Origin: Amphiura filiformis
Lineage: Eukaryota; Echinodermata; Ophiuroidea; Amphilepidida; Amphiuridae
Assembly: GCF_039555335.1 (NCBI RefSeq)
Contig: NC_092629.1
Coordinates: 35,380,965 to 35,444,964, forward strand
Length of the DNA stretch: 64,000 nucleotides
Reading direction: 5' to 3'
The notes under the pieces were generated by a model that did not search any database, was not told where the DNA came from, and saw only the letters and a program-made list of their open reading frames with translations. Position numbers and translations under genes: made by a program. Below are positions 17,221-64,000 of the stretch, piece after piece. The first letter of the stretch is position 1. Each line of letters opens with the position of its first letter.

Positions 17221-40552
<23,332 letters not shown>

Positions 40553-41534
40553 CCTAACAAATGTCTTCAGTGCAACTAGGAATCGTATTCTTGAAATATA
40601 CACTGCTGCTTTTCAAAGTGTGAGGCAAATTAAATTATCTGAATAAAAGGAAAGAAAAAGCACATAATGTGATATGGATAAATTTTATGAATATCATGAC
40701 TGTGTCATGGTGTATTTAAAGAAATTACTATTATATAGACTGTTGTCGAGAGCGTACTTCCGTGATAAATGTGATGTTGACACTGTAGCGCAAACTCATT
40801 AAAGTTAAAAACAATGTGTAATGTGTATGATAGGCCTTTGGCGACAGAATTTACAATGTGTGCGACGTGGTAAAGCACACATAATACGCTTTAGAGGTGC
40901 CTTGTTAACATCACAGAAGTATGCTTCAAAGCTATATCAATTTTTGCAGAATTCCTTTTAGTTTTACAAATTAAAGCGCACTGCCACTGCTAACCGCTGC
41001 AGCGCGTATTATTTTCCACTTGTAAGCATGCACACGCTTGACGTTGTGCATGCACATACGCCATGTACGCAATGGTTAACGCACACAAGGAACCTTGCAA
41101 CAGATTTATTTATCATCTCCCGGGTATCATCTATAAGTCATGAATGATATTGTGAAGCATGCACATGCATGCATGTATCAGTGCAAACTTGCTTGGCAAG
41201 GTATTTTCAATTTTGTGCATGAAAATATTTGTGCATAAAAGCATATTTTCCAAATGCCTTTGGCCATAAATGTAACAACTGAACATAAAATAATAAATAT
41301 CCATCCTATTTATAATACTTACTGAGGTCCAACCACTTGCAAATTGAAGAAAAACACGAAAAGTTCTGCCACATTTCACCACAACATGAAACACAACACA
41401 ACATTAATTTACCGACAGCCGTCTCCCAATCAATCATCTATCACAGCCCGTAGTCCTGTGTTATTGAGCGTGTGGAAAGGGAAAGTGGGGCAATAAAAGT
41501 GCAATTTAGAGCACTTTAACATTTAATTTACACT
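40553..41534. promoter_or_regulatory. Divergent promoter interval between RTCA and DBT
   Basis: 982 bp separate the two start codons, so both 5' UTRs and at least the core promoters must lie here unless a 5' non-coding exon exists further away. An inverted CCAAT (cccaatcaatcatc) lies at about 41426, close upstream of DBT. No clear TATA box. The central part is rich in 'gcatgcacat'-like alternating sequence (41025-41060 and 41160-41180). Confidence 0.55.
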
Positions 41535-41597
41535 ATGGCAGCGTTATTAAGAAGAACTTTAGGGGCACCTGTAACATTTCGCCTTTGCTGTTTGAAG
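41535..41597 (+). CDS. DBT: DBT exon 1
   Basis: [20 protein letters not shown] plus K, donor gtgagt, phase 0. The N-terminus is basic and amphipathic, as expected of a mitochondrial presequence. This start fits human DBT, which also begins MAA. Confidence 0.82.
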
Positions 41598-44500
41598 GTG
41601 AGTATCACAGCATGATAAAAATCAAGATCGGAATCCATGACGTGTGACGTGAATTATCTTTCTGGTTGCTGAATTCGGCAGGTTGGTTCATTGTTCGTTA
41701 CACCTGATACATGTAAGCTTAACTATGGTAAAAGTTGCCACATTACCCGGGGGTAGGGGGCACTTCAATAGGAAATGGATATAGGTGTAGGGCTGGCACT
41801 TTTGCAGTAAGGGGCATTCGGTGAGAGCAAAATGTTCAAAATGTCTAGTCAGTGAGCAAATTTCTTCAATATTTTGAGAAAATGTCAAATTTTCTATTCT
41901 ATATTTAGGTATGCCAGGTGAATTCAAATTTGCCATCAAACTGCATCATTTTATATATCAAATTACAGCCCTTGAGTAAAGAAAGCCAACACTGAAAACC
42001 TTTTTGTCATAGCACTTTCCGTAGCAAAGTTACATCTTGTCAAAGATTGACTTTCATCAAAAAGATTCTGCTAGCAAAATTCCCCAAAATAGCATTACGG
42101 GGGTGTTTCTAGATCTTAGTCTCATGACGATAGCACCTTTTTTTAATGGAACTGCTATCAAAATCTCTCTGAAATTCCATGTGGTCATGTATTTTGAGGT
42201 GGGACCCAATTGTGTCACATCTTGCAATTTGTCAAAAATCAACTCCTTTTTGTATTTCTGATTATATTTCAAAAGTTTTCACCCAAACTATGTAAAAGTA
42301 TATATTTTTAGAAAGCATATATTGTCAGGATTGCAAATCTGTTAAGTTTGAGTGGATATACAGGGTGTGCCAAAAAAATATACAGGGTGATTCCATTGAA
42401 AAATACCTAAAATATTACATTTCTTTACCACTCTAATATTTCTACATAGCATATTAAATTGGAAAATGAACTTGGTATTTGGAATGTACACAATTAGTCC
42501 TTTCATTAAATATTTAGTTCGCACTATATTTGTTAAGCCCATTATGTTATACAGAGTGTGAAAAAGTTGTATCTTAAATTGTTTAATTTAATGTAAAATT
42601 TCCCTAAGTGCCATTTGTAAGCAAATGCACTTCAAATTTGGAAACAAAATAGTTTAAAGAATTGCTATAATATCACATTTAAATATCCAATTCCATATAG
42701 GTGTTTCAAAAATCAATTTACAGTGAATAAATTGTAACAATGGTACATGTACATGTAGGCATATACAGATGCACAATTAGCCTACATCAATAAACTATTT
42801 AACAATAACCAGAGATCAATATGTCATCAGATTAAATCCTTTGACTGCAATAATCTCCTTTGAGAAGATTTATTTGATACATGTAGATATTTCAAAGATA
42901 AAACAATTTAAACAAGAGCTATATAGAAAGTCATGCGAGACATGACACACAAGCCGACCTGTTAATGGGTCAAGTTTGAGCAATTTAGAAATTTGACATT
43001 TGACCCCTAAACTTTGACCTTTGGGGTCATAAATATTTTTAACATGTTTAGAATGTCGTAAGAATAATTCCTGTTGAATTTGAGCTCGATTGGACCAATT
43101 TCGAAATTTGATCTTTGACCCCTATAACTTGACCCTTGGGTCACGGATGGGGTCAACTGCTCTTGCATTGTGCTTAGGATGTCATAAGAAAGATTCCTGG
43201 TGAATTTCAGCTTAATCGAACTTATACATGGATTTTGATTTTTTAAATTTTTGATTGACCTTTTGACCCCCTTAATGACCTTTGACCTCAATGAAAAAAA
43301 ACCTTATGTACACCGACAAAATGTATTGTTCTAATTTTAATCAAAAAATTCTAACATGTTTAGTTCTTGAGATAAAAATTCTTGAAGTTATTCAGCTAAA
43401 AACAGGAAGTGACCCTTAATGACCTTTGACCCCCAAAATAAAAAATACCATTCATACATCAGGAACACTGATTCATATATGATGGTTATATTATTCTGGT
43501 CTGTTTATCTTTTGAGATAAATTTTTTGAACATTTTTGATAATTTTGGTTTTTGACCGGAAGTAACCCTTTAATGACCTTTGACCCCAAAACTGTAGGCA
43601 TCCTAAAGACCCCGTCTAGTAGCAATGCATGTGTGCTAATGGCGACACTCTGCTATGTAATTTGTAAAGACAGTGATTTTTTTAATATTATTTACAAGTT
43701 TTTCAGACTGTAACCGGAAATGACCCCTTAATGACCTTTGACCCCTTATCAATGAACAGCCTATATACACCGACCATAGACGAGTCATGTGACCAAACCG
43801 TGTCATCATCGCATGTTGTTTGTAGGAGAAGATACATTTTGAAGAAAAATCACATTGTTGACCTCTTTATCTAGGTCAAAGGTCACACGTAGTTCAAAGT
43901 CATATGACATGTGTGGGCAATACCAACGGTCCTTCTGACAACGTTTAGTTAAAATACGTCAACCCGTGACTGAGTTATACGTACGAATGTGGTCGACAGA
44001 AGAAAGAAGAAAGAAGAAACAAGAGCTATATAGAAAGTCATGCGAGACATGACAACAAGCCGACTAAATTTGACCTTTGACCCCTATAACTTGACCCCTG
44101 GGTCACGGATGGGGTCAACTGCTCTTGCATTATGCTTAGGATGTCATAAGAAAGATTCCTGGTGAATTTCAGCTTAATCGGAACTTATACATGGATTTTG
44201 ATTTTTTGAAAATTTTGATTGACCTTTTGACCCCCTTAATGACCTTTGACTTCAATGGAAAAAAAAAACCTTACGTACACCGACAAAATGCATTGTTCCA
44301 ATTTTAATTAAAAATTTTTAGCATGTTTAGTTCTCGAGATAAAAATTCTTAAAGTTATTCAGCTAAAAACAGGAAGTGACCCCTTAATGACCTTTGACCC
44401 CCAAAATAAAAATACCATGCATACATCAGGGAACACTGATTCATGTATGATGGTTATATTATTCTGGTCTGTTTATCTTTTGAGATAAAAATTTTTTTGA

Positions 44501-47500
44501 ACATTTTTTATAATTTTGGTTTTTGACCGGAAGTAACCCCTTAATGACCTTTGACCCCAAAACTGTAGGCATCCTAAAGACCCTGTCTAGTAGCGATGCA
44601 TGTGTGCTAATGGCGACTCTCTGCTATGTAATTTGTAAAGACAGTGATTTTTTGAATATTATTTACAAGTTTTTCAGACTGTAACCGGAAATGACCCCTT
44701 AATGACCTTTGACCCCTTATCAATGAACACCGTATATACACCGACCATAGGCGAGTCATGTGACCAAACCGTGTCATCATCGCATGTTGTTTGTAGGAGA
44801 AGATACATTTTGAAGAAAAATCACATTGTTGACCTCTTTATCTAGGTCAAAGGTCACACGTAGTTCAAAGTCATATGACATGTGCGGGCAATGCCAACGG
44901 TCCTTCTGACAACGTTTAGTTAAAATCGTCAACCCGTGACTGAGTTATACGTCACGTCTGAATGTGGTCGACAGAAGAAAGAAGAAAGAAAGAAAGAAGA
45001 AGCACGCCAATAAGACAGTACAAGCCGACGTTCGGCGTCGGCTTGTAAGAAGAAGAACGCCAAGAAGACAGTACAAGCCGACGTTCGTCGTCGGCTTGTA
45101 AAGATCTATTTATGACAGATGAGATTTATTTTCATTCCTTTCTTCATGCATGCAAAATTTAAAGCCCATTTTATTGCATGACACACATTCCCCTGCATTA
45201 ATTAAAAGCTTGTTAAATCCTTAATTACTAAGTTTATTAAGATTAGCTAGGCAATTATAGTTATAGAAAGTTTAAAAAAAAATAAGATTAACATTATGCA
45301 AATGCATTTTTACTTCTATTAGGTAACAAAGTGCATATATTTTATTATTGAACACCAACTTCTCATTGGATTTACACAGAGCTCCTCCTCTACCGGCTCC
45401 TCCTCTACCGGCTCCACCCATGGCTAATTAACTTAATTAAGCAGTTGTAATTAATTAATACATTTGTTCAACTGTATTTGTTACTATTTCATTAGATTAA
45501 TAATTTATCTTCCAAATGAGACCAAAACCATTTCTTCATGATGGATTTTAGCAAAAATATATGAAGAAGAAGATAATTTTTTTTGGAAAATGTGACAGCT
45601 CCACCTTTTTTTGGGTGCCCACCTCAAAAAACATGACCATGTCTTGAGTCTCTCATCACCAAAAAAAAAATCATATATTTGGGTCAAGTGAAGTATAGAC
45701 AACATATTTAGGAAGGTTTCCTTCTTAAAAAGCTTCTTTTAAATTTCAATGTAAATTTGTATTGCCGGTTTAGGCCATTTTGACTGACTAGCAAATGTGT
45801 TAACTGAGGTTTCCCTGTCATACCTACTATATTGTTTGGTAATAATGTCTTTTGCCAATAGTATGTTTAAAGTTGTAATTTTGTGTTTTTGATCTCAAAG
45901 ATCGGATATTTCCGTTCCCGATTCGAATTCTGAACCCTTCGAAAGGGTGCCGATTTAGTATGCCTGGTCGAGCACCCTCACAGACCCGAACGTAGTGAGG
46001 GTGCTTGGTATATCCGCCATGTTTCAAATACATGGATGGCCAGCATAATGTCCCGCAAATTTAAGCTTTATGAGAAGCCTATTTTTGTTGCAAAATGAAA
46101 ACACAGAGTGGCTTATCTTTAACCCACATTCTCAATCTCTCATGCCAGAGGTTAAAATAAAACGATCCCTAACTAATTATCAAAAGATCGTAAATTTAAT
46201 TTCTTGAAACATGCCGGCGAAACGATTTGTTTACAAGTAACAATCCTTGTTCCGACACCGATACCGTTCATTCGGCTTCATTCGGTTTCATTTGGCAAAC
46301 CACATGATCACTCAGGTGAACTAGGATTGACGATCGATTACGTTAAATTTTATCCAGGTTACGGGCCATGCTTAATGGCGATACTCGCGTCTTGGAAATA
46401 TTTTTCAACCACGTTGCAAAATGATCGAAATACACCATCAAGGCGACTTCGATCGGTAAGCATCATTGAAACTGAGCAATATTTAGTATTTCTTCTTTTG
46501 ATTTTTTCGATAAAATTGTTACAGTTTTGATTAGTTTGATGAGAGTGGATTTCAAAACCAGTCCACTAGCAGACGTTGTAATTGACAGTTTGACATTTCC
46601 GCCGGAGGTTAATGTGAATCCAAATCTTTCCTTTGGGGCGATTTCCATTTCTTGCTATCATTTAAAGCCTGAAAGCATCAATACTAAAGATAGGCTATCA
46701 GTCGCTTGTGCAGATATATCTTGTATTGGTTGTATTTCCGACGCATACCGATTTAGACAGAACTTTGACGATAATTTTGCCTTTTTGGGCACTAAAATGC
46801 ATTCGATCCTTAATTTTGTTTCAACCGAGTCTTAAATTAGCAAGCACATAAGGTTGGTACCACTTTTATATACATTGATGAAATTTTAAAGATTTTTTTT
46901 CAAGTATCTAACTGGCGCAAATCGTTAAGTGTGTATTTCCCATTGACATCCAAAATGGCGTAAGCCAGTCCTTAATATACAATATAAGGTACGGCGTATA
47001 TAGGACTGGCAAGCGAGTCTAGGTCATTTGGTTACTCGAGAACTCTAGCTTCGAATTTGCACACGATAGTTACGCATTCGATGCTAGAGTGCATTGGTAT
47101 TGTTTTTCGGTCGGACAGCAGTGCAATTTTTTACACCGGAGGTCTTCTGCTTTGGTTTGGAGGTTTTAAACATCCAGGACTTGTAGCCATTTGCTTTGAG
47201 TGCAGATTTAACATGGCTTGCTTCCTGTTGTTTTTCCTCCTCCGTGGTGACTAATTTATCCACTCTATCCAATGTCAAGAATGACAGAGTCCAATATCAG
47301 TATCCATGCTGTTATTTTACAAAACATACATATTATTATTAGACCCCACTTTGAACACTGCTTACAACCTTGTAGGGGGTACCGTAGTTTAGATCTTACA
47401 GCAGGCATAGTGTTAGTGTGTCTCATCTTAAGTTGAGGGTAATAATGCCATGTTGAATTTCCCAGTGGCAGATACATTCAGCCTAACACTGAATCAGGAC

Positions 47501-50500
47501 ATCATCACCCTGGAGAAAGTGCAAAGATGTGCCACAAAACTTGTGCCAGAACTAAGAGATCTGAGCTACGCTGAGAGACTGGAAGCTTTGAATTCATAGT
47601 CCGACAGTCTGCATTCTTTACCTGATAACATTTTTTTCTTTTTTAATCATACAGAAATCATCAGTTTCTAGACTACAAAGATCGTTAGCTATACACAATC
47701 AGAGGGCTTTATATCATGGGACAACTACAGACCAAAGAAGGCCTACATCTTGTACCTTCCAAGCACTGCCATTGCAAACTGGATTGATGTTAAGGCGTAA
47801 TATTTCAACCTCAAGACGTAAGTAAAACAACTGCTTAAAAATGACAATTGTACAAGAGAACCCAGTATTAGATTTAATTAATTAATTTATTCATTAGATA
47901 ACAGGATCATAACACACATAATTATACAGTTTTTATGTTAGGTAACTGTAATCTCATTCTCAAGATGGCCACAAAGCCATCATCCTTGAGCAGGATTTGA
48001 GACTAATAGTTCCTGATCTATTCACAGGCGAAGTGACATAATAATCGGATTAACTACCATAGCAATAGATTCAAACAATTTTGAATATATCACGCAGCAC
48101 TACAAACAGGTTGCACTTATAACCTGTGTGTGTCTGCAATCATAGATTGAATACAATACCGCTCTTTTTAAAGATACTAATCTTACAGGTGCGAGTGATC
48201 AGCATGATATGGTTCAATGCAGAGGTACCATGTGAACGTACTAGTGCAGTGCGGTATAATCAAAAATCGTTTTCAGCTGTTATGGTAGTTAATCTGATTA
48301 TTCGATCATTTCGCCAGCGTTGTCGTGTTTGTTCTGTAATTTTTGTTTTTTATGATTATTTTACACAATTTGCAATGCAGGAAGTTGTTCAGATATACTC
48401 CAATTCAAACTCTCAGATATTGGTGAGGGAATTGCAGAGGTTACTCTCAAAGAATGGTAAGTTGGAAATGGTTGTTATAGTCTATCTCATCTCAGATGAC
48501 ATTAACTCCATGTTGGATTTTCCAGTAGCAGAGACGAATTGTGCAAGCTAATCTAGTACTGTGTAGCGTATACACACACACATAGATGTCCTATTTGTCT
48601 GTATGCTGCCACACAACTGCGTAATTGCATTGATTAGAATCTGCCACTACGAATAGCGTTACATCAACTTGAGATGAGACGCACTATTATAGTGCGTCTC
48701 ATCTCAAGTTGATGTAACGCTATTCTATAATAGTTGAATCAGTCATCACTAGCAAGTTTTGTGCAAAGGGATGACACACCTCAATCTTGATGCTCTGTGT
48801 GATAGCCATAGGCTTCAACATAAGAAGTCCAAATTTTGAGGTATTTTCTCAAAATATCAAAAGCTATCTCAAGAACCACTGAACCAATACTAGGCTTGTT
48901 TGTACTCATTTTAATGCATATTTCATGCCGATTTCAAATATGGTCATGGAAGTTAACAATTCTGAAATTTTTGAATTTTGATTTAAAAAAACAAAACTAT
49001 TCATCTGCAGTCGACACCCGCATAAAGAGGGTTAACCAGTGCTAATTTGTTGCAAATTTCAGGTATGTCAAAGAAGGAGACATAGTAGCCCAGTTTGAGA
49101 GCATATGTGAAGTACAGAGTGACAAGGCATCGGTGACCATTACAAGTCGTTACGACGGTGTTATACGAAAGCTACATTATGAGGTGGATGACATTGCTAA
49201 AGTTGGCACACCGCTTATAGATATTGAAGTGGAAGATACTGATAAAAGTAAGGAAAAATATCCTTCTTCTGACCTTGCCCTTGCCTCGTCCCAAAATCAT
49301 GAACTTGATATCCTTACCGCAACCAGTCTAACAAAGAGCTTAGCCTTACCCCAATACTAAACTACAGCATAACCTATGCCTAGACCGTACAATGCGTACA
49401 TACAATTTTAACAGTAGCCTAAACCTAGCCTGTAAACACATCCTAACCCTAACACTTTAACTGCCCTTATCCAAAAGGTATGCCATATTTTAAATGTACG
49501 CCGAATTGCCTTCCTGTTTTTCGTGCAAGAAGGGGGCCAAAGCAATCATCCCAAGGAGTGAGATTGCATCCAAACACCGCAGGAAATGCAGTGGACCAGA
49601 TCATTTGTGATCAAGCCATCAGCCTGGATCAGTGTTTAAATATTTATTGGATTTGACATACAATAATCTATCTAATATTATGTACAATTTTACTGATGCA
49701 TCTGTTTATGGAAGACAGTATTTATTATTCAATAAAACCTCAATAACTTTGAGTATTTTTATAATTTTTTTTTCCAGTGGATGAAGATATTGAAGATAGC
49801 TCGTCAAGTTCAAGTGACAGTGATGAAGAAGTTGCACCTGTTGCAGCGACAGCGACAAGCGGGGGCGCTTCTGTCGGGTTAACTCCTGTGCAGGAGAGGG
49901 TTAGGGTACTCGCTACACCAGCAGTAAAACGTTTAGCTATGGAACATGATGTTAGTATTTAACACCCCTGGGTACCATGTCTTTCTAACAGAGTCTCTGA
50001 TTGGTTAATTACATGATATAATCATCTGAGTAACCAATTAAAATAGAGGTTTTAGATCTCTCAGCAAGCTTAATCCCCTACAGCCCTACTGACTGTCCTT
50101 ACCATACCTCTGATTGGCTCTATCATGATATAACTGTTTGTAACCAATCAAAAAAAGTTCTTAGAAGTAGATAATTTGTAATACTGCCATTCTTACAGAG
50201 CCTCTGATTGGGTAATTACATTACATGTATACAGGCTGTATCAAAATGATTGGTGCCCATCGGTTTCCAGTGATATATGGACATGACTACCACATCAGAA
50301 TGCAACATAGGATCTGCATAAATCATGGTAATTGCTATATCCTTTGTTGCATTTGGAAGAAGTAGGATTTTCAATAACAAACAAAACTGATGGATACCAA
50401 TCATTTTGATACAGCCTGTATAATCAGCAGAGTAACCAGTCAAAATTGAGTTTTTAGATCTCTTAGATCAGACTTACTGATTAATATTCTTATACCACAT

Positions 50501-53500
50501 CTCTGATTGGCTCAATACATAACATAACCCTCATTGTAACCAATCAAAATAGTTCTTACTAATTAGAGGCTGATGATTTGGTGTCCATAAGATTAAGGTT
50601 AGAAATGTGTAAGTTAAGGTCTTACAGAAGTCATAGCTAGTGGGGTTCTTTTGTGGTGCCAACTTTGGAACTGGGTAGTCTAGCCCTAGAACTCTGGCCA
50701 TAGTAACCATTCTTACTGTAACTAAGGCCAGGGGTGCTTTACATTGAAAAACTGGAAGGGAATGCTGGAACAAATCAGTACTATTATGCATGTCAAACTT
50801 TTGGTTCCTGGTTGTTTCTTTTTATTCACACTTCAGATTATGCAAATGGTACCAGCCACTTCCTGTCCGGGGCTTGGTGCTAGCTATTATGAAAGACAGA
50901 GATAAAAAAAGACTAGTTCGGGTCTGAAATTCTAACAACTAGACAGAAATTACCGTACTGCACTGGTCGGCAACCAATCATGGCACGCCTTTGCCCTGGC
51001 GTCAGACGCGATTTAGTCTTTAAATCGTTTTGCTGTAGAGCAAAATGTAAACACCATATGTGACACGATCAAGGGAAATGAGTCGGATGTCGCTAATACT
51101 GATTTTGAGATATTGGCAAATAAAGTGTTTATATTCTTTTGTTTTATATTGTTTTCAGCGCTTGATAAATTGACGTAACTTTGTAAAGAAAAGCTGTATC
51201 AACATGGGGTTTTCAGTTTCTGAAAGCTCTTAATGTCCTCTTTAGAAACAAATGTAAAACTCATTTTCGACCATGGTCGACATGTGACTCATTCCCCTTA
51301 ATCATGTCACATGTAAGCTTGCAAGTGTATAAACATGATGGAAGCATAATAGTTTTTCATAAAGTTTATTATATTGTAAAACTATTTCTTTTCCTCCATT
51401 ATTTCAGATCAAATTAATTGATGTAGTTGGCACTGGCAAAGATAGACGTGTATTAAAAGAAGACATGTTAAAACATATAGAGATGTTAGCCAGTGGTCAG
51501 ACACCAGCTAAACCAGGTAGGATATAGAGGATAGATTATAGTCTGTCTCGTTGCTAATACTGATTTTGAGATATTGGCAAAGAAAGTGTTCAAATTCTTA
51601 TGTTTTTATATTGTTTTTAGCAATTGAAAAATTGATTTAACTTCGCTAAGAAAAGTCGTATCAACATGAGGTCTTCAGTTTCTGAAAGCTCTAAATGTCC
51701 TCTTTAGAAACATATGTAAACTCATTTTAGATCATGGTCGACATGTGACTCGTTCCCCTTAATCATGTCACATATGTGTCTAAACCTGTTTAGATCAATT
51801 TTTTTGCATAAGCGCCTTAAATCACCTTTATGTATGTATGTATGTATGTACCAACATTTTACTATATATGTTCAATTGTTCAAATACCCTACAGCAAAAG
51901 CAGCACCGACTAAGCCTATAACAACTCCTCCCGTTCCACAACCAGCAACGCCCCCATCACCAGTCTTACCTCCAGTCCGTCGTCCTGCTCCAGTGTATAT
52001 CAGCGAAGATAGGAAAGAACCTATTAAAGGTATGTAATTGTTGGATTGATTTGTTTATGTAGGGATTTAATTATGTTTCACTGTTGTTCATCACCTTTTA
52101 ACATTCATAACCTCATTAATATACGCGATGTGTTTTATCCAATCACAGATAATAACTTTTAAAAACGCGAACGCAAATGCAGGTTATTGAAAAAGTATAA
52201 TGACCTCGTCTCATGACATAGCTAGAATTACGCTTTACAATGACCGCGTTACGTGACGTGTTATGCATTCAAAAAATATTACGCGGGCGCTGACCACCAT
52301 CTTTGGACATCCAATGATTGTGCGCTAGTGTGATTTGTTGCTAGTGGGATTTGCTTATTCGCATATTCGATTTTTTACAGGGAAAACGAAACATGCAGTT
52401 AAAATTGTATTTTGTTTTCAAATTTAAAAGAAGAAAATGTGACGATAATTGAATTACAAAAGTGAAAAGTGACAGTTATGAATGAGGTTAATGACTGCGC
52501 ATCAGTTATTTTTTGGGTATTGTGAAATATCTAAACATGGGATATTCCAAGGTCCAAAGCACAATATTTAGATATTTCACAATACCCTCAATACAACTGA
52601 TGCGCAGTCATTAACCTCTAAATGATGCATCCGCATCGTCTGCATGCATTGTTTATTTCTCGTGGGTTACTTTAGCTTTAGCTGCCCAAGTGAAGCAAAT
52701 CATGCAAATGCGCCAGAATTCAACAATGAAAACAAGCTAAAGATTGTCTTATTTTATTATTTCATGAGGAATGTCAGTTAGTCATTGCCATTCAACATTA
52801 CAAGAAGATTGATGATTTATCTGTTGATATCAGCAATTAAACTACTGAATAAAATGGCAATGTTGAGCAGCTTCCTCCAAAATAATGAATTCAATGTGTA
52901 AGCGCCGCATCCCACAAGTTTCAGGCATGACAAATTGTACACATTCATTTAACTTGTGTTCGCATACAAAATGTATACGCTGCTGTGAAAGTACTGTGGA
53001 TTCATCGCAGATTAACAACGGTTGGCTCCTGTACAAAGGTACAGGAAGATTTGTTGAATATTTGATCAACAATTTTTTTTTATTGATTGATTGAGTGCTT
53101 GTGTAATTACTTTATTGTATACTTGATCGATTGATTGTTTTATCAACAAAATAAGCTTTTCAGATCATAATAATGTTTAGGTTTTTGAAATATATGGTGT
53201 ATCTTGAGCCACAGTTGTCAGAAAGTTCCTGTAAAGTGTGCTGAGTTGTGTAGGTTTATGTGCATAGTTCACTATAAATCACTGTAGTTCTTTTTTAAAT
53301 GTTCTTATTAACAGGCATCCAGATGGCCATGGTAAAAACAATGAAAATCGCCAATGAGATCCCACACTTTGGATATTGTGATGAAATTGAGGTCAGCCGG
53401 CTAGTGGAGCTGAAACCGACATTGCAAAAGGCGGCTGCGGATAGGGGAGTGAAATTTTCCTTCATGCCGTTGTTTATTAAGGCTGCATCGACAGCGCTGT

Positions 53501-56014
53501 TCAGTTTCCCTATACTAAATGCATATGTGGATGAAAAGTGTGAAAGTATGACGTATAAGGTAGGTCTGGCCTGTAATGTAATCAGTGTATACTGAGAAGA
53601 TATCTTACCCTTCCCAGAATCCTTTGCTGCATGATGCATCACCTCATTTCATCAAATGACACTCCTATTACTTTGTACAGGTTCCCTTTGTTTTCATATT
53701 CAGAATTGACTGGCTAAACATGGGTCGATAGTCAAGAAATAAACACATTTTGCAAGATCCGGAATTGCTCTGTTCATTGAGGTATTTTTTGTCACCATGA
53801 AATTGAAGAAATGCATTGTGGGAAATGTAAGATATCTTCTGGGGTTCAAGGGTGATGTGAGGTAGTATGCATTAACATTTTCAGCAGAAAAAAAATCAGG
53901 CAAAGTGGAAAGGGGACATTTTCATGCAGAATTCTTTTGTGTGTGTGTGCTGGTACTTAGCTAATTTTCAACAGTTTCACATGTTGAACAAATTTTAATC
54001 TGTACCCAGGGCAGGCACTGCACATTAACATTAATGACAAGTAACGTAGTTGGGACATTACTCGGAGCAGTACCTGAGCTAGCATTGTTTGTGCTCAAAT
54101 ATTGAGAAAAATAAAGCCCGCACTCATAGGAAAGGTATGGGTTCAATATGTGAGACCCCAAGGCTCATTGTAAATTAATTTTTTTGTAATAGGTTTCAGT
54201 GCCCCCATGTGCATGATTTTTCTTGGAGGGAGGAAATAACAAAAATTTTCATTTAGGCCTTTTATTTGTCATAACTCAATAACTGCAATACATATGGAAA
54301 TATAAATGTAACCAGTGGCTTCTTTGACTCATTTCCTCAAATATCAATGTTTTACCCTGCAGAAATGGACTGAAGCGAAATGACTAAAACTGGACAAATA
54401 TATCCTGAAGGCTCTGACTCGCCTTAATTAGTAATTATTTGTAAAAGTTATGTTGCTTTTGTTTCCTCCTGACAGGCAGTACATAATATTGGTTTTGCAA
54501 TGGACACACCACATGGTCTGCTGGTTCCCAACATCAAGAATTGTGAATCATTAAGCATATTTGAAATAGCACAAGATTTGAGCAGGTTAATGGAGCTGGG
54601 CAAGGTGGGGAAGCTGGGACAGGATGATCTAAGTGGTGGAACCTTTACTTTATCTAACATTGGAACTGTAAGTAGAGCATTTAAAGTGCCGGCAGCATGC
54701 ACATTGATTTTGAACTCTCTCATATTGACATTATCTGAAAAAGAGACCTTTTCAAAGTCTGTATTAAGCAGAGACGTAGCTTGCAACACCATCATGGCAT
54801 CTTCATCTATGATGATCTGCTGTTATACTTAACCACCCACCAGGTGGTCATGTGACCGGAGGAGTGTAAACACTACGCTGAAAGAAGACGCCATGATGGT
54901 GTCGCAAGCTACATCACTGATCCCGCTGTGTTAATAATTTTAAAATGTATGCGGATCTGTTCTTCATGCTCATTTTGTTGTGCAGATAAGTTATTTTAGA
55001 CCCCTAGAAAACTACTCCAGATTTGAGAAACATTGCACCATGTCTTATGTAGCTAAAAATTGAAGTGTAGCTGAGTGGTTAAGGCGTTGGACTGTGAATC
55101 CCAGGGTCCTGGGTTTGAAATCTGAGTAGGTCCGCTTGAGCTCAGCTGGCTCTTTGTGTCCTTGAGCAAGGCACTTCATTCTGCTTGCTTAGTGCTTCGG
55201 AGGCCACTTTAAGCTGTCGGTCCTGTGTACATGTATTTCTGACATTAATGCAGTGTGTACTTTAAAGAACATCACAGGCTATTCGAAAAAAAGCAGGGGA
55301 TCATCCCAGTTCTGTTGACTGTACTTCAAAAATACACTCATCTACTCTAGGTTCCAGCTTGTCTGTACGCAGTATGATAATACTCATACATAAGAGGCCT
55401 GCACTAATAAGGAAGAAGTAGAAGAGGGAGTTCAGATATGTCAATTGGGAATTTGATCTACTTCTGAATTTAATCAAACCTATAAATCAGCCATAGTTAT
55501 AATTTTGCATGCCTCAAGTGAAAACTGCCTGTCCAAAGTGACATGGGCATGCAACTAACTTGCAAACTGTTGTGGAGATTGAGTAGTAGCACGCCCTTTG
55601 TATAGTGTTGATTTATTAAATTGTAATGCTGATTTTGTCCATGCTAAAATCAGCAATATTATAAGCGTGGAGATTGAGTTGTAAGTGTGGAGATTGAGTA
55701 GTAGCACACCCTTTGTAAAGTGTTGATTTATTAAATTGTAATGCTGATTTTGTCCATGCTAAAATCAGCAATATCTGTAAGACTTTTGAAAGTGTGGGGT
55801 GCAAATATCTATAAGAGTTGTGTATAAGATGTAATTATTTTTTTACCCAAACCAAGTAAAATTCTCTAGCTGATATCTTTTAGGATGTCATCAGAATTGT
55901 ATTTGATTTTAAAACCCAGTGTGTTATTTGATCCTTTTACAGGTTGGTGGGACTTATGCTAAGCCAGTCTTAATGCCACCTCAAGTTGCTATAGGAGCTA
56001 TCGGTAGAATTCAG
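41535..56014 (+). CDS. DBT: Dihydrolipoamide branched-chain transacylase E2 (DBT), exons 1-10, 3' end outside window
   Basis: DBT forms the core of the mitochondrial branched-chain 2-oxoacid dehydrogenase complex and transfers branched-chain acyl groups from its lipoyl arm to CoA in Leu, Ile and Val breakdown. Ten exons (63, 163, 76, 185, 173, 109, 135, 245, 192, 72 nt) read 471 residues without a break. Layout: an Arg-rich, acid-poor mitochondrial targeting region (1-75); lipoyl domain (about 82-157) with lipoyl-Lys122 in EVQSDKASV; an acidic Ser-rich linker; subunit-binding domain (about 204-247, [15 protein letters not shown] then [15 protein letters not shown]); a Pro-rich linker; and the acyltransferase domain from about 293 ([60 protein letters not shown]). 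The HxxxD catalytic motif, expected in the final exon or exons, is not in the window because a 7.8-kb array follows exon 10. Divergent from RTCA. Confidence 0.96.
42911..45105. repeat. Two tandem copies of a 1.1-kb repeat with terminal hairpins, DBT intron 1
   Basis: Copies at 42911-44017 and 44018-45105 both start aacaagagctatatagaaag and are largely collinear. They carry many 'aatgacctttgacccc' phrases. The second lacks about 170 bp near its start. After it come two hairpins (acaagccgacg, ttcgg, cgtcggcttgt) at about 45021-45049 and 45072-45100. No coding sequence recognised. Confidence 0.75.
47655..47817 (+). CDS. DBT: DBT exon 2 (rest of presequence)
   Basis: 163 nt after acceptor taatcatacag. 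It encodes an Arg, Ser and Gln-rich stretch ending [11 protein letters not shown]. It is poorly conserved, as presequences are, but it is in frame with exons 1 and 3 and lacks acidic residues except one Asp. Confidence 0.78.
48381..48456 (+). CDS. DBT: DBT exon 3 (start of lipoyl domain)
   Basis: It encodes [20 protein letters not shown] and the first two bases of Trp. Acceptor caatgcag, donor gtaagt, phase 1 to 2. Confidence 0.95.
48651..48725. repeat. Perfect 36-bp palindrome with a 3-nt spacer, DBT intron 3... upstream copy in intron after exon 3
   Basis: The left arm 48651-48686 (gaatagcgttacatcaactt... to gcacta) and right arm 48690-48725 are exact inverse complements, with tta between them. 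It lies in DBT intron 3 (between exons 3 and 4). Related single-arm phrases ('gtctcatct...aagttga') occur at 47415 and 48485. Confidence 0.9.
48803..49034 (+). repeat. Third copy of the 'gagatattttctcaaaatatc' repeat
   Basis: Homologous to 10134-10335. It ends about 28 bp before DBT exon 4. Confidence 0.65.
49063..49247 (+). CDS. DBT: DBT exon 4 (lipoyl-lysine exon)
   Basis: It encodes [37 protein letters not shown] and [12 protein letters not shown]. Lys122 in SDKA is the lipoylation site. 185 nt, phase 2 to 1. Confidence 0.97.
49778..49950 (+). CDS. DBT: DBT exon 5 (acidic linker, start of subunit-binding domain)
   Basis: It begins with an acidic/Ser run ([17 protein letters not shown]) and ends [15 protein letters not shown] before a gttagt donor, weaker than the others in the gene. 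Phase 1 to 0. Confidence 0.92.
49988..50565. repeat. Loose tandem repeat 'cctctgattggctcaat...taaccaatcaaaa'
   Basis: The paired phrases recur at about 49988, 50105, 50205 and 50500. The block is interrupted by the MITE at 50230-50421. It lies in DBT intron 5. Confidence 0.55.
50230..50421. mobile_element. MITE with tacaggctgtatcaaaatga ends
   Basis: The terminal arms of about 31 bp (tacaggctgtatcaaaatga and tcattttgatacagcctgta) are near-perfect inverted copies. One diverged arm is also found at 10708-10735. Confidence 0.82.
51090..51775 (+). repeat. Direct repeat pair flanking DBT exon 6
   Basis: About 230 bp at 51090-51310 and again at 51545-51775 share 'gctaatactgattttgagat', 'tttctgaaagctct' and 'ggtcgacatgtgactc' in the same order and orientation, with exon 6 between them. 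Confidence 0.8.
51408..51516 (+). CDS. DBT: DBT exon 6 (rest of subunit-binding domain)
   Basis: It encodes [18 protein letters not shown] and [18 protein letters not shown]. 109 nt, phase 0 to 1. The exon is flanked by a direct repeat of about 230 bp in both neighbouring introns. Confidence 0.94.
51895..52029 (+). CDS. DBT: DBT exon 7 (Pro-rich linker)
   Basis: It encodes a Pro, Ala and Thr-rich linker ([20 protein letters not shown]) and then EDRKEPIK, the usual lead-in to the acyltransferase domain. Phase 1 to 1. Confidence 0.9.
52484..52622. mobile_element. MITE with gaggttaatgactgcgcatc ends
   Basis: About 55-bp inverted arms (gaggttaatgactgcgcatc..., and ...gatgcgcagtcattaacctc), also pairing through tattgtgaaatatctaaa. 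DBT intron 7. Confidence 0.82.
53315..53559 (+). CDS. DBT: DBT exon 8 (start of acyltransferase domain)
   Basis: It encodes [20 protein letters not shown], then [20 protein letters not shown] and ESMTYK. 245 nt, phase 1 to 0, donor gtaggt. A MITE begins 35 bp after the donor. Confidence 0.97.
53594..53841. mobile_element. MITE, 'gatatcttacccttccca' family, copy 3 (intact)
   Basis: The ends gaagatatcttacccttccc and gggaaatgtaagatatcttc are inverted. It gives the empty-site reference for the insertion in copy 2. Confidence 0.8.
54476..54667 (+). CDS. DBT: DBT exon 9
   Basis: It encodes [19 protein letters not shown], then a helical stretch and [13 protein letters not shown]. 192 nt, phase 0 to 0, donor gtaagt. 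Confidence 0.97.
54776..54912. mobile_element. MITE with gtagcttgcaacaccatcat ends
   Basis: gtagcttgcaacaccatcat at the left and atgatggtgtcgcaagctac at the right are inverted copies. 137 bp, 109 bp after DBT exon 9. Confidence 0.82.
55062..55385 (+). mobile_element. tRNA-derived SINE
   Basis: The head 'tgtagctgagtggttaaggc' and 'ggtcctgggtttgaaatc' form A- and B-box-like parts of a Ser/Leu-type tRNA. The body has 'ccttgagcaaggcacttcat', shared with the SINE at 6729. The motif recalls the central domains of V-SINE and CORE-SINE families; that link is inference. Confidence 0.65.
55568..55790. repeat. Two-copy tandem repeat, about 115 bp
   Basis: 'ggagattgagtagtagcac' to 'ctaaaatcagcaatat' occurs twice with few differences, in DBT intron 9. 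Each copy contains the inverted pair gctgattttgtcc and catgctaaaatcagc. Confidence 0.8.
55943..56014 (+). CDS. DBT: DBT exon 10 (source exon of the 89/101-bp array)
   Basis: Twenty-four codons, [18 protein letters not shown] then AIGRIQ, after acceptor ccttttacag and before gtaatt. Human DBT continues straight on at this point to the HxxxD motif, so the rest of the domain must come from an exon beyond the window. The last 54 nt are repeated downstream. Confidence 0.95.
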
Positions 56015-59000
56015 GTAATTTCTTATATATTATTGTGTGTTCTATAGGCTGAGTCTGATATAAGCCAGTACAAGTTGCTATAGGAGCTATCGGTAGAATT
56101 CAGGTAATTTCTTATATATTATTGTGTGATCTATAGGCTGAGTCTGGTATAAGCCAGTCTTAATGCCACCTCAAGTTGCTATAGGAGCTATTGGTAGAAT
56201 TCAGGTAATTTCTTATATATTATTGTGTGATCTATAGGCTGAGTCTGGTATAAGCCAGTATTAATGCCACCTCAAGTTGCTATAGGAGCTATTGGTAGAA
56301 TTCAGGTAATTTCTTATATATTATTGTGTGCTCTATAGGCTGAGTCTGGTATAAGCCAGTATTAATGCCACCTCAAGTTGCTATAGGAGCTATTGGTAGA
56401 ATTCAGGTAATTTCTTATATATTATTGTGTGCTCTATAGGCTGAGTCTGGTATAAGCCAGTATTAATGCCACCTCAAGTTGCTATAGGAGCTATTGGTAG
56501 AATTCAGGTAATTTCTTATATATTATTGTGTGCTCTATAGGCTGAGTCTGGTATAAGCCAGTCTTAATGCCACCTCAAGTTGCTATAGGAGCTATTGGTA
56601 GAATTCAGGTAATTTCTTATATATTATTGTGTGCTCTATAGGCTGAGTCTGGTATAAGCCAGTATTAATGCCACCTCAAGTTGCTATAGGAGCTATCGGT
56701 AGAATTCAGGTAATTTCTTATATATTATTGTGTGATCTATAGGCTGAGTCTGGTATAAGCCAGTATTAATGCCACCTCAAGTTGCTATAGGAGCTATCGG
56801 TAGAATTCAGGTAATTTCTTATATATTATTGTGTGCTCTATAGGCTGAGTCTGGTATAAGCCAGTACAAGTTGCTATAGGAGCTATCGGTAGAATTCAGG
56901 TAATTTCTTATATATTATTGTGTGCTCTATAGGCTGAGTCTGATATAAGCCAGTACAAGTTGCTATAGGAGCTATCGGTAGAATTCAGGTAATTTCTTAT
57001 ATATTATTGTGTGCTCTATAGGCTGAGTCTGGTATAAGCCAGTATTAATGCCACCTCAAGTTGCTATAGGAGCTATCGGTAGAATTCAGGTAATTTCTTA
57101 TATATTATTGTGTGATCTATAGGCTGAGTCTGGTATAAGCCAGTATTAATGCCACCTCAAGTTGCCATAGGAGCTATCGGTAGAATTCAGGTAATTTCTT
57201 ATATATTATTGTGTGCTCTATAGGCTGAGTCTGGTATAAGCCAGTATTAATGCCACCTCAAGTTGCTATAGGAGCTATTGGTAGAATTCAGGTAATTTCT
57301 TATATATTATTGTGTGCTCTATAGGCTGAGTCTGGTATAAGCCAGTACAAGTTGCTATAGGAGCTATCGGTAGAATTCAGGTAATTTCTTATATATTATT
57401 GTGTGCTCTATAGGCTGAGTCTGATATAAGCCAGTACAAGTTGCTATAGGAGCTATTGGTAGAATTCAGGTAATTTCTTATATATTATTGTGTGCTCTAT
57501 AGGCTGAGTCTGATATAAGCCAGTACAAGTTGCTATAGGAGCTATCGGTAGAATTCAGGTAATTTTTTATATATTATTGTGTGCTCTATAGGCTGAGTCT
57601 GATATAAGCCAGTACAAGTTGCTATAGGAGCTATCGGTAGAATTCAGGTAATTTCTTATATATTATTGTGTGCTCTATAGGCTGAGTCTGGTATAAGCCA
57701 GTACAAGTTGCTATAGGAGCTATCGGTAGAATTCAGGTAATTTCTTATATATTATTGTGTGCTCTATAGGCTGAGTCTGATATAAGCCAGTACAAGTTGC
57801 TATAGGAGCTATCGGTAGAATTCAGGTAATTTCTTATATATTATTGTGTGCTCTATAGGCTGAGTCTGATATAAGCCAGTACAAGTTGCTATAGGAGCTA
57901 TTGGTAGAATTCAGGTAATTTCTTATATATTATTGTGTGCTCTATAGGCTGAGTCTGGTATAAGCCAGTACAAGTTGCTATAGGAGCTATCGGTAGAATT
58001 CAGGTAATTTCTTATATATTATTGTGTGCTCTATAGGCTGAGTCTGGTATAAGCCAGTACAAGTTGCTATAGGAGCTATCGGTAGAATTCAGGTAATTTC
58101 TTATATATTATTGTGTGCTCTATAGGCTGAGTCTGATATAAGCCAGTACAAGTTGCTATAGGAGCTATTGGTAGAATTCAGGTAATTTCTTATATATTAT
58201 TGTGTGCTCTATAGGCTGAGTCTGGTATAAGCCAGTACAAGTTGCTATAGGAGCTATCGGTAGAATTCAGGTAATTTCTTATATATTATTGTGTGCTCTA
58301 TAGGCTGAGTCTGATATAAGCCAGTACAAGTTGCTATAGGAGCTATCGGTAGAATTCAGGTAATTTCTTATATATTATTGTGTGCTCTATAGGCTGAGTC
58401 TGATATAAGCCAGTACAAGTTGCTATAGGAGCTATCGGTAGAATTCAGGTAATTTCTTATATATTATTGTGTGCTCTATAGGCTGAGTCTGATATAAGCC
58501 AGTACAAGTTGCTATAGGAGCTATCGGTAGAATTCAGGTAATTTCTTATATATTATTGTGTGCTCTATAGGCTGAGTCTGATATAAGCCAGTACAAGTTG
58601 CTATAGGAGCTATTGGTAGAATTCAGGTAATTTCTTATATATTATTGTGTGCTCTATAGGCTGAGTCTGGTATAAGCCAGTACAAGTTGCTATAGGAGCT
58701 ATCGGTAGAATTCAGGTAATTTCTTATATATTATTGTGTGCTCTATAGGCTGAGTCTGGTATAAGCCAGTACAAGTTGCTATAGGAGCTATCGGTAGAAT
58801 TCAGGTAATTTCTTATATATTATTGTGTGCTCTATAGGCTGAGTCTGATATAAGCCAGTACAAGTTGCTATAGGAGCTATTGGTAGAATTCAGGTAATTT
58901 CTTATATATTATTGTGTGCTCTATAGGCTGAGTCTGGTATAAGCCAGTACAAGTTGCTATAGGAGCTATCGGTAGAATTCAGGTAATTTCTTATATATTA

Positions 59001-62000
59001 TTGTGTGCTCTATAGGCTGAGTCTGATATAAGCCAGTACAAGTTGCTATAGGAGCTATCGGTAGAATTCAGGTAATTTCTTATATATTATTGTGTGCTCT
59101 ATAGGCTGAGTCTGATATAAGCCAGTACAAGTTGCTATAGGAGCTATCGGTAGAATTCAGGTAATTTCTTATATATTATTGTGTGCTCTATAGGCTGAGT
59201 CTGATATAAGCCAGTACAAGTTGCTATAGGAGCTATTGGTAGAATTCAGGTAATTTCTTATATATTATTGTGTGCTCTATAGGCTGAGTCTGATATAAGC
59301 CAGTACAAGTTGCTATAGGAGCTATTGGTAGAATTCAGGTAATTTCTTATATATTATTGTGTGTTCTATAGGCTGAGTCTGATATAAGCCAGTACAAGTT
59401 GCTATAGGAGCTATCGGTAGAATTCAGGTAATTTCTTATATATTATTGTGTGCTCTATAGGCTGAGTCTGATATAAGCCAGTACAAGTTGCTATAGGAGC
59501 TATCGGCAGAATTCAGGTAATTTCTTATATATTATTGTGTGCTCTATAGGCTGAGTCTGGTATAAGCCAGTACAAGTTGCTATAGGAGCTATCGGTAGAA
59601 TTCAGGTAATTTCTTATATATTATTGTGTGCTCTATAGGCTGAGTCTGATATAAGCCAGTACAAGTTGCTATAGGAGCTATTGGTAGAATTCAGGTAATT
59701 TCTTATATATTATTGTGTGCTCTATAGGCTGAGTCTGATATAAGCCAGTACAAGTTGCTATAGGAGCTATCGGTAGAATTCAGGTAATTTCTTATATATT
59801 ATTGTGTGCTCTATAGGCTGAGTCTGATATAAGCCAGTACAAGTTGCTATAGGAGCTATCGGTAGAATTCAGGTAATTTCTTATATATTATTGTGTGCTC
59901 TATAGGCTGAGTCTGATATAAGCCAGTACAAGTTGCTATAGGAGCTATCGGTAGAATTCAGGTAATTTCTTATATATTATTGTGTGCTCTATAGGCTGAG
60001 TCTGATATAAGCCAGTACAAGTTGCTATAGGAGCTATCGGTAGAATTCAGGTAATTTCTTATATATTATTGTGTGCTCTATAGGCTGAGTCTGATATAAG
60101 CCAGTACAAGTTGCTATAGGAGCTATCGGTAGAATTCAGGTAATTTCTTATATATTATTGTGTGCTCTATAGGCTGAGTCTGATATAAGCCAGTACAAGT
60201 TGCTATAGGAGCTATCGGTAGAATTCAGGTAATTTCTTATATATTATTGTGTGTTCTATAGGCTGAGTCTGATATAAGCCAGTACAAGTTGCTATAGGAG
60301 CTATCGGTAGAATTCAGGTAATTTCTTATATATTATTGTGTGCTCTATAGGCTGAGTCTGATATAAGCCAGTACAAGTTGCTATAGGAGCTATCGGTAGA
60401 ATTCAGGTAATTTCTTATATATTATTGTGTGCTCTATAGGCTGAGTCTGATATAAGCCAGTACAAGTTGCTATAGGAGCTATCGGTAGAATTCAGGTAAT
60501 TTCTTATATATTATTGTGTGCTCTATAGGCTGAGTCTGATATAAGCCAGTACAAGTTGCTATAGGAGCTATCGGTAGAATTCAGGTAATTTCTTATATAT
60601 TATTGTGTGCTCTATAGGCTGAGTCTGGTATAAGCCAGTCTTAATGCCACCTCAGGTTGCTATAGGAGCTATCGGTAGAATTCAGGTAATTTCTTATATA
60701 TTATTGTGTGCTCTATAGGCTGAGTCTGATATAAGCCAGTACAAGTTGCTATAGGAGCTATCGGTAGAATTCAGGTAATTTCTTATATATTATTGTGTGC
60801 TCTATAGGCTGAGTCTGATATAAGCCAGTACAAGTTGCTATAGGAGCTATCGGTAGAATTCAGGTAATTTCTTATATATTATTGTGTGCTCTATAGGCTG
60901 AGTCTGATATAAGCCAGTACAAGTTGCTATAGGAGCTATCGGTAGAATTCAGGTAATTTCTTATATATTATTGTGTGCTCTATAGGCTGAGTCTGATATA
61001 AGCCAGTACAAGTTGCTATAGGAGCTATCGGTAGAATTCAGGTAATTTCTTATATATTATTGTGTGCTCTATAGGCTGAGTCTGGTATAAGCCAGTACAA
61101 GTTGCTATAGGAGCTATCGGTAGAATTCAGGTAATTTCTTATATATTATTGTGTGCTCTATAGGCTGAGTCTGATATAAGCCAGTACAAGTTGCTATAGG
61201 AGCTATCGGTAGAATTCAGGTAATTTCTTATATATTATTGTGTGCTCTATAGGCTGAGTCTGGTATAAGCCAGTACAAGTTGCTATAGGAGCTATCGGTA
61301 GAATTCAGGTAATTTCTTATATATTATTGTGTGCTCTATAGGCTGAGTCTGGTATAAGCCAGTACAAGTTGCTATAGGAGCTATCGGTAGAATTCAGGTA
61401 ATTTCTTATATATTATTGTGTGCTCTATAGGCTGAGTCTGATATAAGCCAGTACAAGTTGCTATAGGAGCTATCGGTAGAATTCAGGTAATTTCTTATAT
61501 ATTATTGTGTGCTCTATAGGCTGAGTCTGGTATAAGCCAGTACAAGTTGCTATAGGAGCTATCGGTAGAATTCAGGTAATTTCTGATATATTATTGTGTG
61601 CTCTATAGGCTGAGTCTGATATAAGCCAGTACAAGTTGCTATAGGAGCTATCGGTAGAATTCAGGTAATTTCTTATATATTATTGTGTGCTCTATAGGCT
61701 GAGTCTGATATAAGCCAGTACAAGTTGCTATAGGAGCTATCGGTAGAATTCAGGTAATTTCTTATATATTATTGTGTGCTCTATAGGCTGAGTCTGATAT
61801 AAGCCAGTACAAGTTGCTATAGGAGCTATCGGTAGAATTCAGGTAATTTCTTATATATTATTGTGTGCTCTATAGGCTGAGTCTGATATAAGCCAGTACA
61901 AGTTGCTATAGGAGCTATCGGTAGAATTCAGGTAATTTCTTATATATTATTGTGTGCTCTATAGGCTGAGTCTGATATAAGCCAGTACAAGTTGCTATAG

Positions 62001-63758
62001 GAGCTATCGGTAGAATTCAGGTAATTTCTTATATATTATTGTGTGCTCTATAGGCTGAGTCTGGTATAAGCCAGTACAAGTTGCTATAGGAGCTATCGGT
62101 AGAATTCAGGTAATTTCTTATATATTATTGTGTGCTCTATAGGCTGAGTCTGATATAAGCCAGTACAAGTTGCTATAGGAGCTATCGGTAGAATTCAGGT
62201 AATTTCTTATATATTATTGTGTGCTCTATAGGCTGAGTCTGATATAAGCCAGTACAAGTTGCTATAGGAGCTATCGGTAGAATTCAGGTAATTTCTTATA
62301 TATTATTGTGTGCTCTATAGGCTGAGTCTGATATAAGCCAGTACAAGTTGCTATAGGAGCTATCGGTAGAATTCAGGTAATTTCTTATATATTATTGTGT
62401 GCTCTATAGGCTGAGTCTGATATAAGCCAGTACAAGTTGCTATAGGAGCTATCGGTAGAATTCAGGTAATTTCTTATATATTATTGTGTGCTCTATAGGC
62501 TGAGTCTGATATAAGCCAGTACAAGTTGCTATAGGAGCTATCGGTAGAATTCAGGTAATTTCTTATATATTATTGTGTGCTCTATAGGCTGAGTCTGATA
62601 TAAGCCAGTACAAGTTGCTATAGGAGCTATCGGTAGAATTCAGGTAATTTCTTATATATTATTGTGTGCTCTATAGGCTGAGTCTGATATAAGCCAGTAC
62701 AAGTTGCTATAGGAGCTATCGGTAGAATTCAGGTAATTTCTTATATATTATTGTGTGCTCTATAGGCTGAGTCTGATATAAGCCAGTACAAGTTGCTATA
62801 GGAGCTATCGGTAGAATTCAGGTAATTTCTTATATATTATTGTGTGCTCTATAGGCTGAGTCTGATATAAGCCAGTACAAGTTGCTATAGGAGCTATCGG
62901 TAGAATTCAGGTAATTTCTTATATATTATTGTGTGCTCTATAGGCTGAGTCTGATATAAGCCAGTACAAGTTGCTATAGGAGCTATCGGTAGAATTCAGG
63001 TAATTTCTTATATATTATTGTGTGCTCTATAGGCTGAGTCTGATATAAGCCAGTACAAGTTGCTATAGGAGCTATCGGTAGAATTCAGGTAATTTCTTAT
63101 ATATTATTGTGTGCTCTATAGGCTGAGTCTGATATAAGCCAGTACAAGTTGCTATAGGAGCTATCGGTAGAATTCAGGTAATTTCTTATATATTATTGTG
63201 TGCTCTATAGGCTGAGTCTGATATAAGCCAGTACAAGTTGCTATAGGAGCTATCGGTAGAATTCAGGTAATTTCTTATATATTATTGTGTGCTCTATAGG
63301 CTGAGTCTGATATAAGCCAGTACAAGTTGCTATAGGAGCTATCGGTAGAATTCAGGTAATTTCTTATATATTATTGTGTGCTCTATAGGCTGAGTCTGAT
63401 ATAAGCCAGTACAAGTTGCTATAGGAGCTATCGGTAGAATTCAGGTAATTTCTTATATATTATTGTGTGCTCTATAGGCTGAGTCTGATATAAGCCAGTA
63501 CAAGTTGCTATAGGAGCTATCGGTAGAATTCAGGTAATTTCTTATATATTATTGTGTGCTCTATAGGCTGAGTCTGATATAAGCCAGTACAAGTTGCTAT
63601 AGGAGCTATCGGTAGAATTCAGGTAATTTCTTATATATTATTGTGTGCTCTATAGGCTGAGTCTGATATAAGCCAGTACAAGTTGCTATAGGAGCTATCG
63701 GTAGAATTCAGGTAATTTCTTATATATTATTGTGTGATCTATAGGCTGAGTCTGGTTT
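55961..63758 (+). repeat. DBT exon 10-derived tandem array, 86 units of 89 or 101 bp
   Basis: The first unit begins inside exon 10 at 55961. Each unit holds the last 42 or 54 nt of the exon, the donor gtaatt, about 26 bp of intron start and 'ctctataggctgagtctg'. Twelve units are the 101-bp form with the ancestral exon sequence and 74 are an 89-bp form lacking 12 nt (four codons, L-M-P-P). 12x101 + 74x89 equals the measured 7,798 bp exactly. Long units cluster at the left end (the first eleven before 57300, one at about 60630). The right third is almost uniform. Confidence 0.97.
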
Positions 63759-64000
63759 AAGCCAGTATTAATGTCACTTCGAGTCACTATACGAGCTATC
63801 GGTAGCTCTAATTTATCAACTAGTTTGTTAGCAGGTATTAAAGTTAGATCTGAATGTCCATTCAGAAAGAAGCAGCTAGCAATGTTAGACATGTTTGATC
63901 CATTTCATGGATGAGAGAATTGGGGTGTTTTTTCTGATTGAACATGAAGACAGGTTGGGGGCAGTAGGCTCAGTCCTCTGCAGAAAATAATATTCAGGAT
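63759..64000 (+). other. Degenerate terminal unit and following intron sequence
   Basis: A last, diverged copy (gccagtattaatgtcacttc, gagctatcggtag) runs to about 63806, where it leaves the repeat before any splice donor. The rest is unique sequence with no recognised exon. The final DBT exon or exons are not reached. Confidence 0.7.

Follow-up and report, generated by a model that had tools for sequence, protein, structure and literature searches.

Why would an intron contain dozens of copies of the end of the exon before it, each with its own 5′ splice site, and how would the gene cope with them? The question is raised by the DBT gene in a 64,000-nucleotide stretch of Amphiura filiformis DNA (contig NC_092629.1), hereafter the window. 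The reading that we favor, at a probability of about 70%, is that the DBT array is a minisatellite that happens to span a splice donor, a passenger tolerated because its first copy is the real exon.

DBT and the array in its intron 10

DBT, the E2 component of branched-chain ketoacid dehydrogenase, is a mitochondrial enzyme whose gene lies on the plus strand of the window. Eight exons with AG/GT borders, placed by eye, join into a single open frame that encodes a lipoyl domain, a linker and a catalytic domain, with Pfam matches to Biotin_lipoyl and 2-oxoacid_dh. Numbered after what we take to be their human counterparts, these are exons 3 (48381-48456), 4 (49063-49247), 5 (49778-49950), 6 (51408-51516), 7 (51895-52029), 8 (53315-53559), 9 (54476-54667) and 10 (55943-56014). 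The reading frame of exon 8 matched the bovine BCKD E2 core chain (2ihw) with E=7e-28, and the joined peptide of exons 9 and 10 matched 2ihw (E=7.4e-35) and Pfam 2-oxoacid_dh (E=2.4e-33). The gene and exon named in an earlier note on this DNA are borne out by these matches and by the open frame. Exon 10 has 72 nt (24 residues, phase 0/0), an acceptor ttttacag/GTTGGT and a donor TCAG/gtaatttc (slashes mark splice borders), and the repeated segment has its first copy in the final 55 nt of this exon. Elsewhere in the gene, the donor of exon 5 (GAT/GTTAGT, 49948-49956, plus strand) looked weak, its computed U1 pairing of -1.2 kcal/mol being the weakest of 12 donors placed in the window.

Tandem Repeats Finder reported the array at 55982-63767 (period 89, 86.0 copies, 98% matches, score 14006). 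An exact search of the window for ATTCAGGTAATT returned 86 matches, every one within the array, which agrees with the 86 sense-oriented units with an identical donor described earlier (86/86). Two details of that description needed revision. The units do consist of exon end, donor and intron start, but the exonic part measures 43-55 nt and not 42-54 nt; and the array, previously bounded at 55943..63758, shows repeat homology over 55960-63805 (plus strand), its final copy (63758-63805) being a diverged partial exon end with 7 mismatches to exon 10 in 48 nt and no donor. The donor, ATTCAG/GTAATT, has its first GT at 56015 and its last at 63712, the copy number of 86 being that of the assembly. 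No exact copy of the donor core was found in the window outside the array, and 86 of the 87 CAGGTAA sites on the plus strand fall within it.

The 85 intervals between donors comprise 15 distinct sequences and only two lengths, 89 bp (74 intervals) and 101 bp (11 intervals), so that no diverged donor is hidden among them. A long unit is made, in sense orientation, of 46 nt from the start of intron 10 and 55 nt from the end of exon 10. In the short unit, 12 nt of the exonic part are missing in frame (codons LMPP), leaving 43 exonic nt. From the end of the array to the end of the window there are 195 bases.

Besides the 12-nt deletion, 9 of the 101 unit columns vary. Ten of the long intervals lie among intervals 2-13 and the eleventh is interval 51. 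Units 19-26 recur as units 27-34; when units 9-62 were shuffled 1000 times, such an 8-unit block was reached in 6 shuffles. Mean differences between units rise with lag, from 0.90-0.95 (lags 1-8) through 1.1-1.3 (lags 12-40) to 1.8 (lag 60). Exchange of blocks and local expansion would leave such a lag pattern and block repeat. The last 18 intervals (62110-63711) are all identical (type A) and probably form its most recent section, and the divergence of the terminal copy would be expected of an unhomogenized edge. A search for the origin of the first duplication, in which the sequence following the array was compared with the start of intron 10, showed no homology beyond 6 nt.

A minisatellite of this form could have arisen in a few steps. 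The segment first duplicated in tandem would have comprised 55 nt from the end of exon 10, its 5′ splice site and the initial 46 nt of intron 10, and a 12-nt deletion would afterwards have given the 89-bp unit. Exchange between repeats may then have spread this unit until 86 donors were present, with the latest growth at the 3′ end.

A second array in RTCA

RTCA (RNA 3′-terminal phosphate cyclase) lies on the minus strand of the window and is the neighbor of DBT, as the two presumably are in human. It carries an array that the earlier note had not included and that repeats the anatomy of the DBT array at a smaller scale. The parent exon (28960-29113, minus strand; Pfam RTC_insert, E=9.7e-11; 4o89, E=2.3e-09) ends in the donor CCAG/gtaagg. 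Tandem Repeats Finder and a donor search placed a first part of the array at 28742-28991 (minus strand), where the real exon end and its donor are followed by two more donors (28959, 28856, 28753), and a main part at 22122-23518 (minus strand), which has 13 donors (23443-22208) and ends in a donorless partial exon copy. In total there are 16 identical CAG/GTAAGG donors; the minus strand of the window has 17 CAGGTAA sites, of which the array supplies 16. Each unit of 103 bp (102 bp in one case) consists of the last 27-32 nt of the exon, the donor and 71-76 nt of intron. Read-through from the exon meets a stop within the first repeat.

The two parts of the RTCA array are 5.3 kb apart, and the stretch between them looks like an insertion. 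Positions 24763-28739, which split the donor array, have inverted terminal repeats (CATTACTCGTTGAC...) and hold tandem repeats of 116-149 bp; at each end, AGGTAAGG lies on or close to the outer side. In the repeat-rich part of this intron, 26125-26196 (plus strand) gave an Rfam tRNA match of 32.4 bits; ARAGORN reported no tRNA genes in the window. Further upstream in RTCA, 31413-31512 (minus strand) is an 81% copy of part of the exon at 30879-31020 and lies about 0.4 kb upstream of that exon. It is a partial exon duplication or an alternative exon, and its translation had no Pfam match.

Two arrays of one anatomy raise the question of a common cause. Segments made of an exon end and its donor might be prone to tandem amplification in this genome, for instance through transcription-coupled breaks, so that the arrays form a class. 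The two lie on opposite strands, start inside an exon and end in a donorless partial exon copy, and a unit of 89-103 bp placed at random would cover a listed donor (12 in all) in 1.7-2.0% of cases. However, with about six other array loci in the window (period at least 42, RTCA included), the chance that at least one hits a donor is about 10%, and somewhat higher because RTCA exons exist beyond the four counted (e.g., about 37906-38157). Two cases are thus weak evidence, and the pair is suggestive only. In addition, a sense-strand G skew is present in DBT only (0.25 vs 0.01). We consider such a systematic origin unlikely.

Tandem repeats are also found elsewhere in the window. A composite array of 16/26/42-bp repeats at 8493-9397, whose unit passes into its own reverse complement near 8920, looks like a large inverted repeat. 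It adjoins an EGF-CFC exon, an open frame at 9456-9806 (plus strand) with a Pfam CFC (Cripto/FRL-1/Cryptic) domain (E=1.3e-05). Two sequence patterns taken from the window found no exact counterpart in viral and prokaryote collections.

Variation among units was compared between the two genes. The nine donor columns never vary, and they were not significantly more conserved than the remaining columns in either array (P=0.42 in DBT, P=0.20 in RTCA); in a test of how long an invariant stretch covers the donor, P was 0.53 for DBT and 0.039 for RTCA. In the DBT units, all five exonic variable columns fall on third codon positions (hypergeometric P=0.0027, spotted post hoc). The corresponding count is one of three in RTCA, which gives at least 6 of 8 for both arrays (P=0.015), and two of the seven changes in the terminal DBT copy are at third positions. 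This pattern, which we keep as a weak hint, may reflect a recent common ancestry of the units and the functional exon, or post hoc chance. Protein-level selection on all units is rejected, given that 74 of the 85 DBT intervals have the LMPP deletion and that two of the three exonic variable columns of RTCA are first or second positions. A broader idea, doubtful but worth stating, is that arrays of exon ends and donors recur in this lineage, with the real exon at the 5′ end acting as a master copy. Exchange with this exon would keep the coding segments free of amino-acid substitutions, and essential exons would thus lie inside fast-turnover minisatellites.

Reading frame and choice among identical donors

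Read-through past donor 1 of DBT (gtaatt, 56015-56020, plus strand) adds VISYILLCVL and then meets an in-frame TAG at 56045-56047 (plus strand), which would be part of every transcript spliced from donors 2-86. As this stop precedes all 85 later donors, donor 1 is the only one that keeps the normal reading frame, and by reading frame normal protein would come from donor 1 only. The distance from the end of the TAG to the exon end is 56 nt for donor 2 and 157 nt for donor 3. NMD usually requires a distance of 50-55 nt, and the predicted transcripts from donors 2 and 3 would therefore lie near or beyond it.

Which donor would be chosen may be judged from minigenes, in which the upstream one of two identical donors 52 nt apart was used exclusively under exon definition (PMC9225289). 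Intron-defined splicing is described as favoring the downstream donor (Reed and Maniatis, via PMC9225289). Since intron 10 of DBT spans at least about 7.8 kb in the window, exon definition with use of donor 1 is the more likely outcome, and the exon 10 acceptor should pair with the nearest donor, which is donor 1. The donor-spanning minisatellite would thus be tolerated because its 5′-most copy is the real exon end and exon definition should pick the nearest donor. Use of a later donor would bring the in-frame stop of the first repeat into the mRNA and lead to NMD. On this view the array would be a passenger and no device, and only a few non-productive isoforms would leak through.

The opposite view, that the array was selected because its extra donors or pseudo-exons divert DBT pre-mRNA to NMD isoforms or hold U1 snRNP, seems to us improbable. 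Splice-site matrices for this comparison came from the 12 donors and 12 acceptors of the window, which were placed by hand. The repeated donor is ordinary among these donors, seventh by the small matrix, and its rank by U1 pairing (fifth best, -8.1 kcal/mol) would suit a regulatory role. So would an acceptor-like site, tatag/GCTGAG, which follows every one of the 86 donors and gives each unit the look of a 56- or 68-nt pseudo-exon; its score is 8.5, where the top 5% of the 899 AGs at 40000-55900 (real acceptors included) begins at 7.89. However, the acceptor matrix was built on 12 sites, the gap from a donor to the next acceptor-like site is 33 nt, which is too short for an intron, and acceptor-like sites were weaker in the RTCA units scanned (best score, 4.81). 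In favor of the regulatory view, U1 bound downstream of a donor is reported to aid exon definition (PMC5933811), and neither AATAAA nor ATTAAA occurs in the DBT array. Against selection, the 18 identical units point to a recent array, probably of polymorphic length. The RNA of three DBT units folded no better than shuffles (z=+1.45), and no RNA or DNA hairpin in the five stretches folded beat its shuffles.

Least likely of all is an assembly artefact in which a shorter real array was over-assembled and its copy number inflated: the copy number is that of the assembly, and 18 identical units are what an assembler could misjudge, but the 15 unit types occur in non-periodic order, the 85 intervals have just two lengths with no stray single-base indels, and another gene has an array of like design.

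Balance of evidence and known systems

The donor-spanning minisatellite is favored by the 86 identical, regularly placed donors, the near-identical units, the repeated 8-unit block and the 18 identical last intervals. The stop ahead of all 85 later donors and the unremarkable donor conservation and RNA folding also count for it, as do, by analogy, the use of the upstream donor in minigenes (PMC9225289) and the parallel with ABCA7 described below. Other observations count against a neutral array. Pure neutrality does not predict that all five exonic variable columns are third positions (a post hoc observation), nor does the invariant run over the RTCA donor favor it; the matching array in the neighboring gene suggests that the cause may be more systematic; and intron-defined splicing, were it to apply here, would favor downstream donors (via PMC9225289).

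The closest parallel is the intron 18 VNTR of human ABCA7, which includes the exon-18 donor and has about 12-427 copies and a length of up to 10.7 kb (PMC5954066). In some transcripts the donor one unit downstream is used, which retains 25 nt out of frame and makes the product subject to NMD. The share of this downstream donor did not change with VNTR length; skipping of exon 19 increased with length (PMC5954066), and a long array therefore need not be harmless. As in ABCA7, the DBT array flanks an exon and takes in its donor. The ABCA7 unit is 25 bp long, lies in a C-rich region and starts at the donor GT, with no coding segment mentioned in the parts of PMC5954066 that describe it. In contrast, the DBT units of 89 or 101 bp contain 43-55 coding nt and a full donor.

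For IFI6, Turri et al. are said to have found in 1995 that a minisatellite supplies several splice donors. Its repeat unit is reportedly short (12 bp), and downstream units reportedly lead to different protein isoforms, unlike the later DBT donors, which all lie behind a stop. Multiple splice donors in the minisatellite of this gene (6-16, G1P3), with two downstream units serving as donors between exons 2 and 3, are described in PMC4526556, and the DBT minisatellite likewise multiplies donors.

Splice signals are also multiplied by tandem duplication in intron gain, as in the Rogers model, potato RdRp and ATP2A1, and in fission yeast, where multi-copy 24-bp AGGT repeats were spliced across (PMC4974935). 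In DBT, however, an old intron was lengthened and its donor multiplied, with no new intron. Judged by sequence, the AGGT model of intron gain does not fit: exon 10 retains its border, the copies lie on the intron side and read-through from exon 10 meets a stop in the first repeat. An introner-like element was also considered, and the window does not fit it, with no exact DBT donor core outside the array and an RTCA array derived from its own exon.

The choice among identical 5′ splice sites has been studied with pairs of sites in minigenes (PMC9225289), and this locus offers a natural test with 86 such sites in DBT and 16 in neighboring RTCA. As every later DBT donor lies behind a stop, transcripts would show directly how strict the choice of the first donor is. 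They would also show whether array length has a cost, as exon skipping in ABCA7 suggests.

The DBT array takes in the natural donor of a coding exon and repeats a putatively usable donor, identical in all 86 copies and with the computed U1 pairing given above. On these grounds the DBT and RTCA arrays would belong with those of ABCA7 and IFI6, with longer units that carry coding sequence, and the DBT array probably represents the runaway growth of a repeat type known from human genes. The earlier note had called an array that keeps its donor this many times unusual. Arrays that span a donor were already known, from IFI6 and from ABCA7 with up to about 427 copies (PMC5954066); what is unusual is that two neighboring genes are affected and that each unit includes a long coding stretch.
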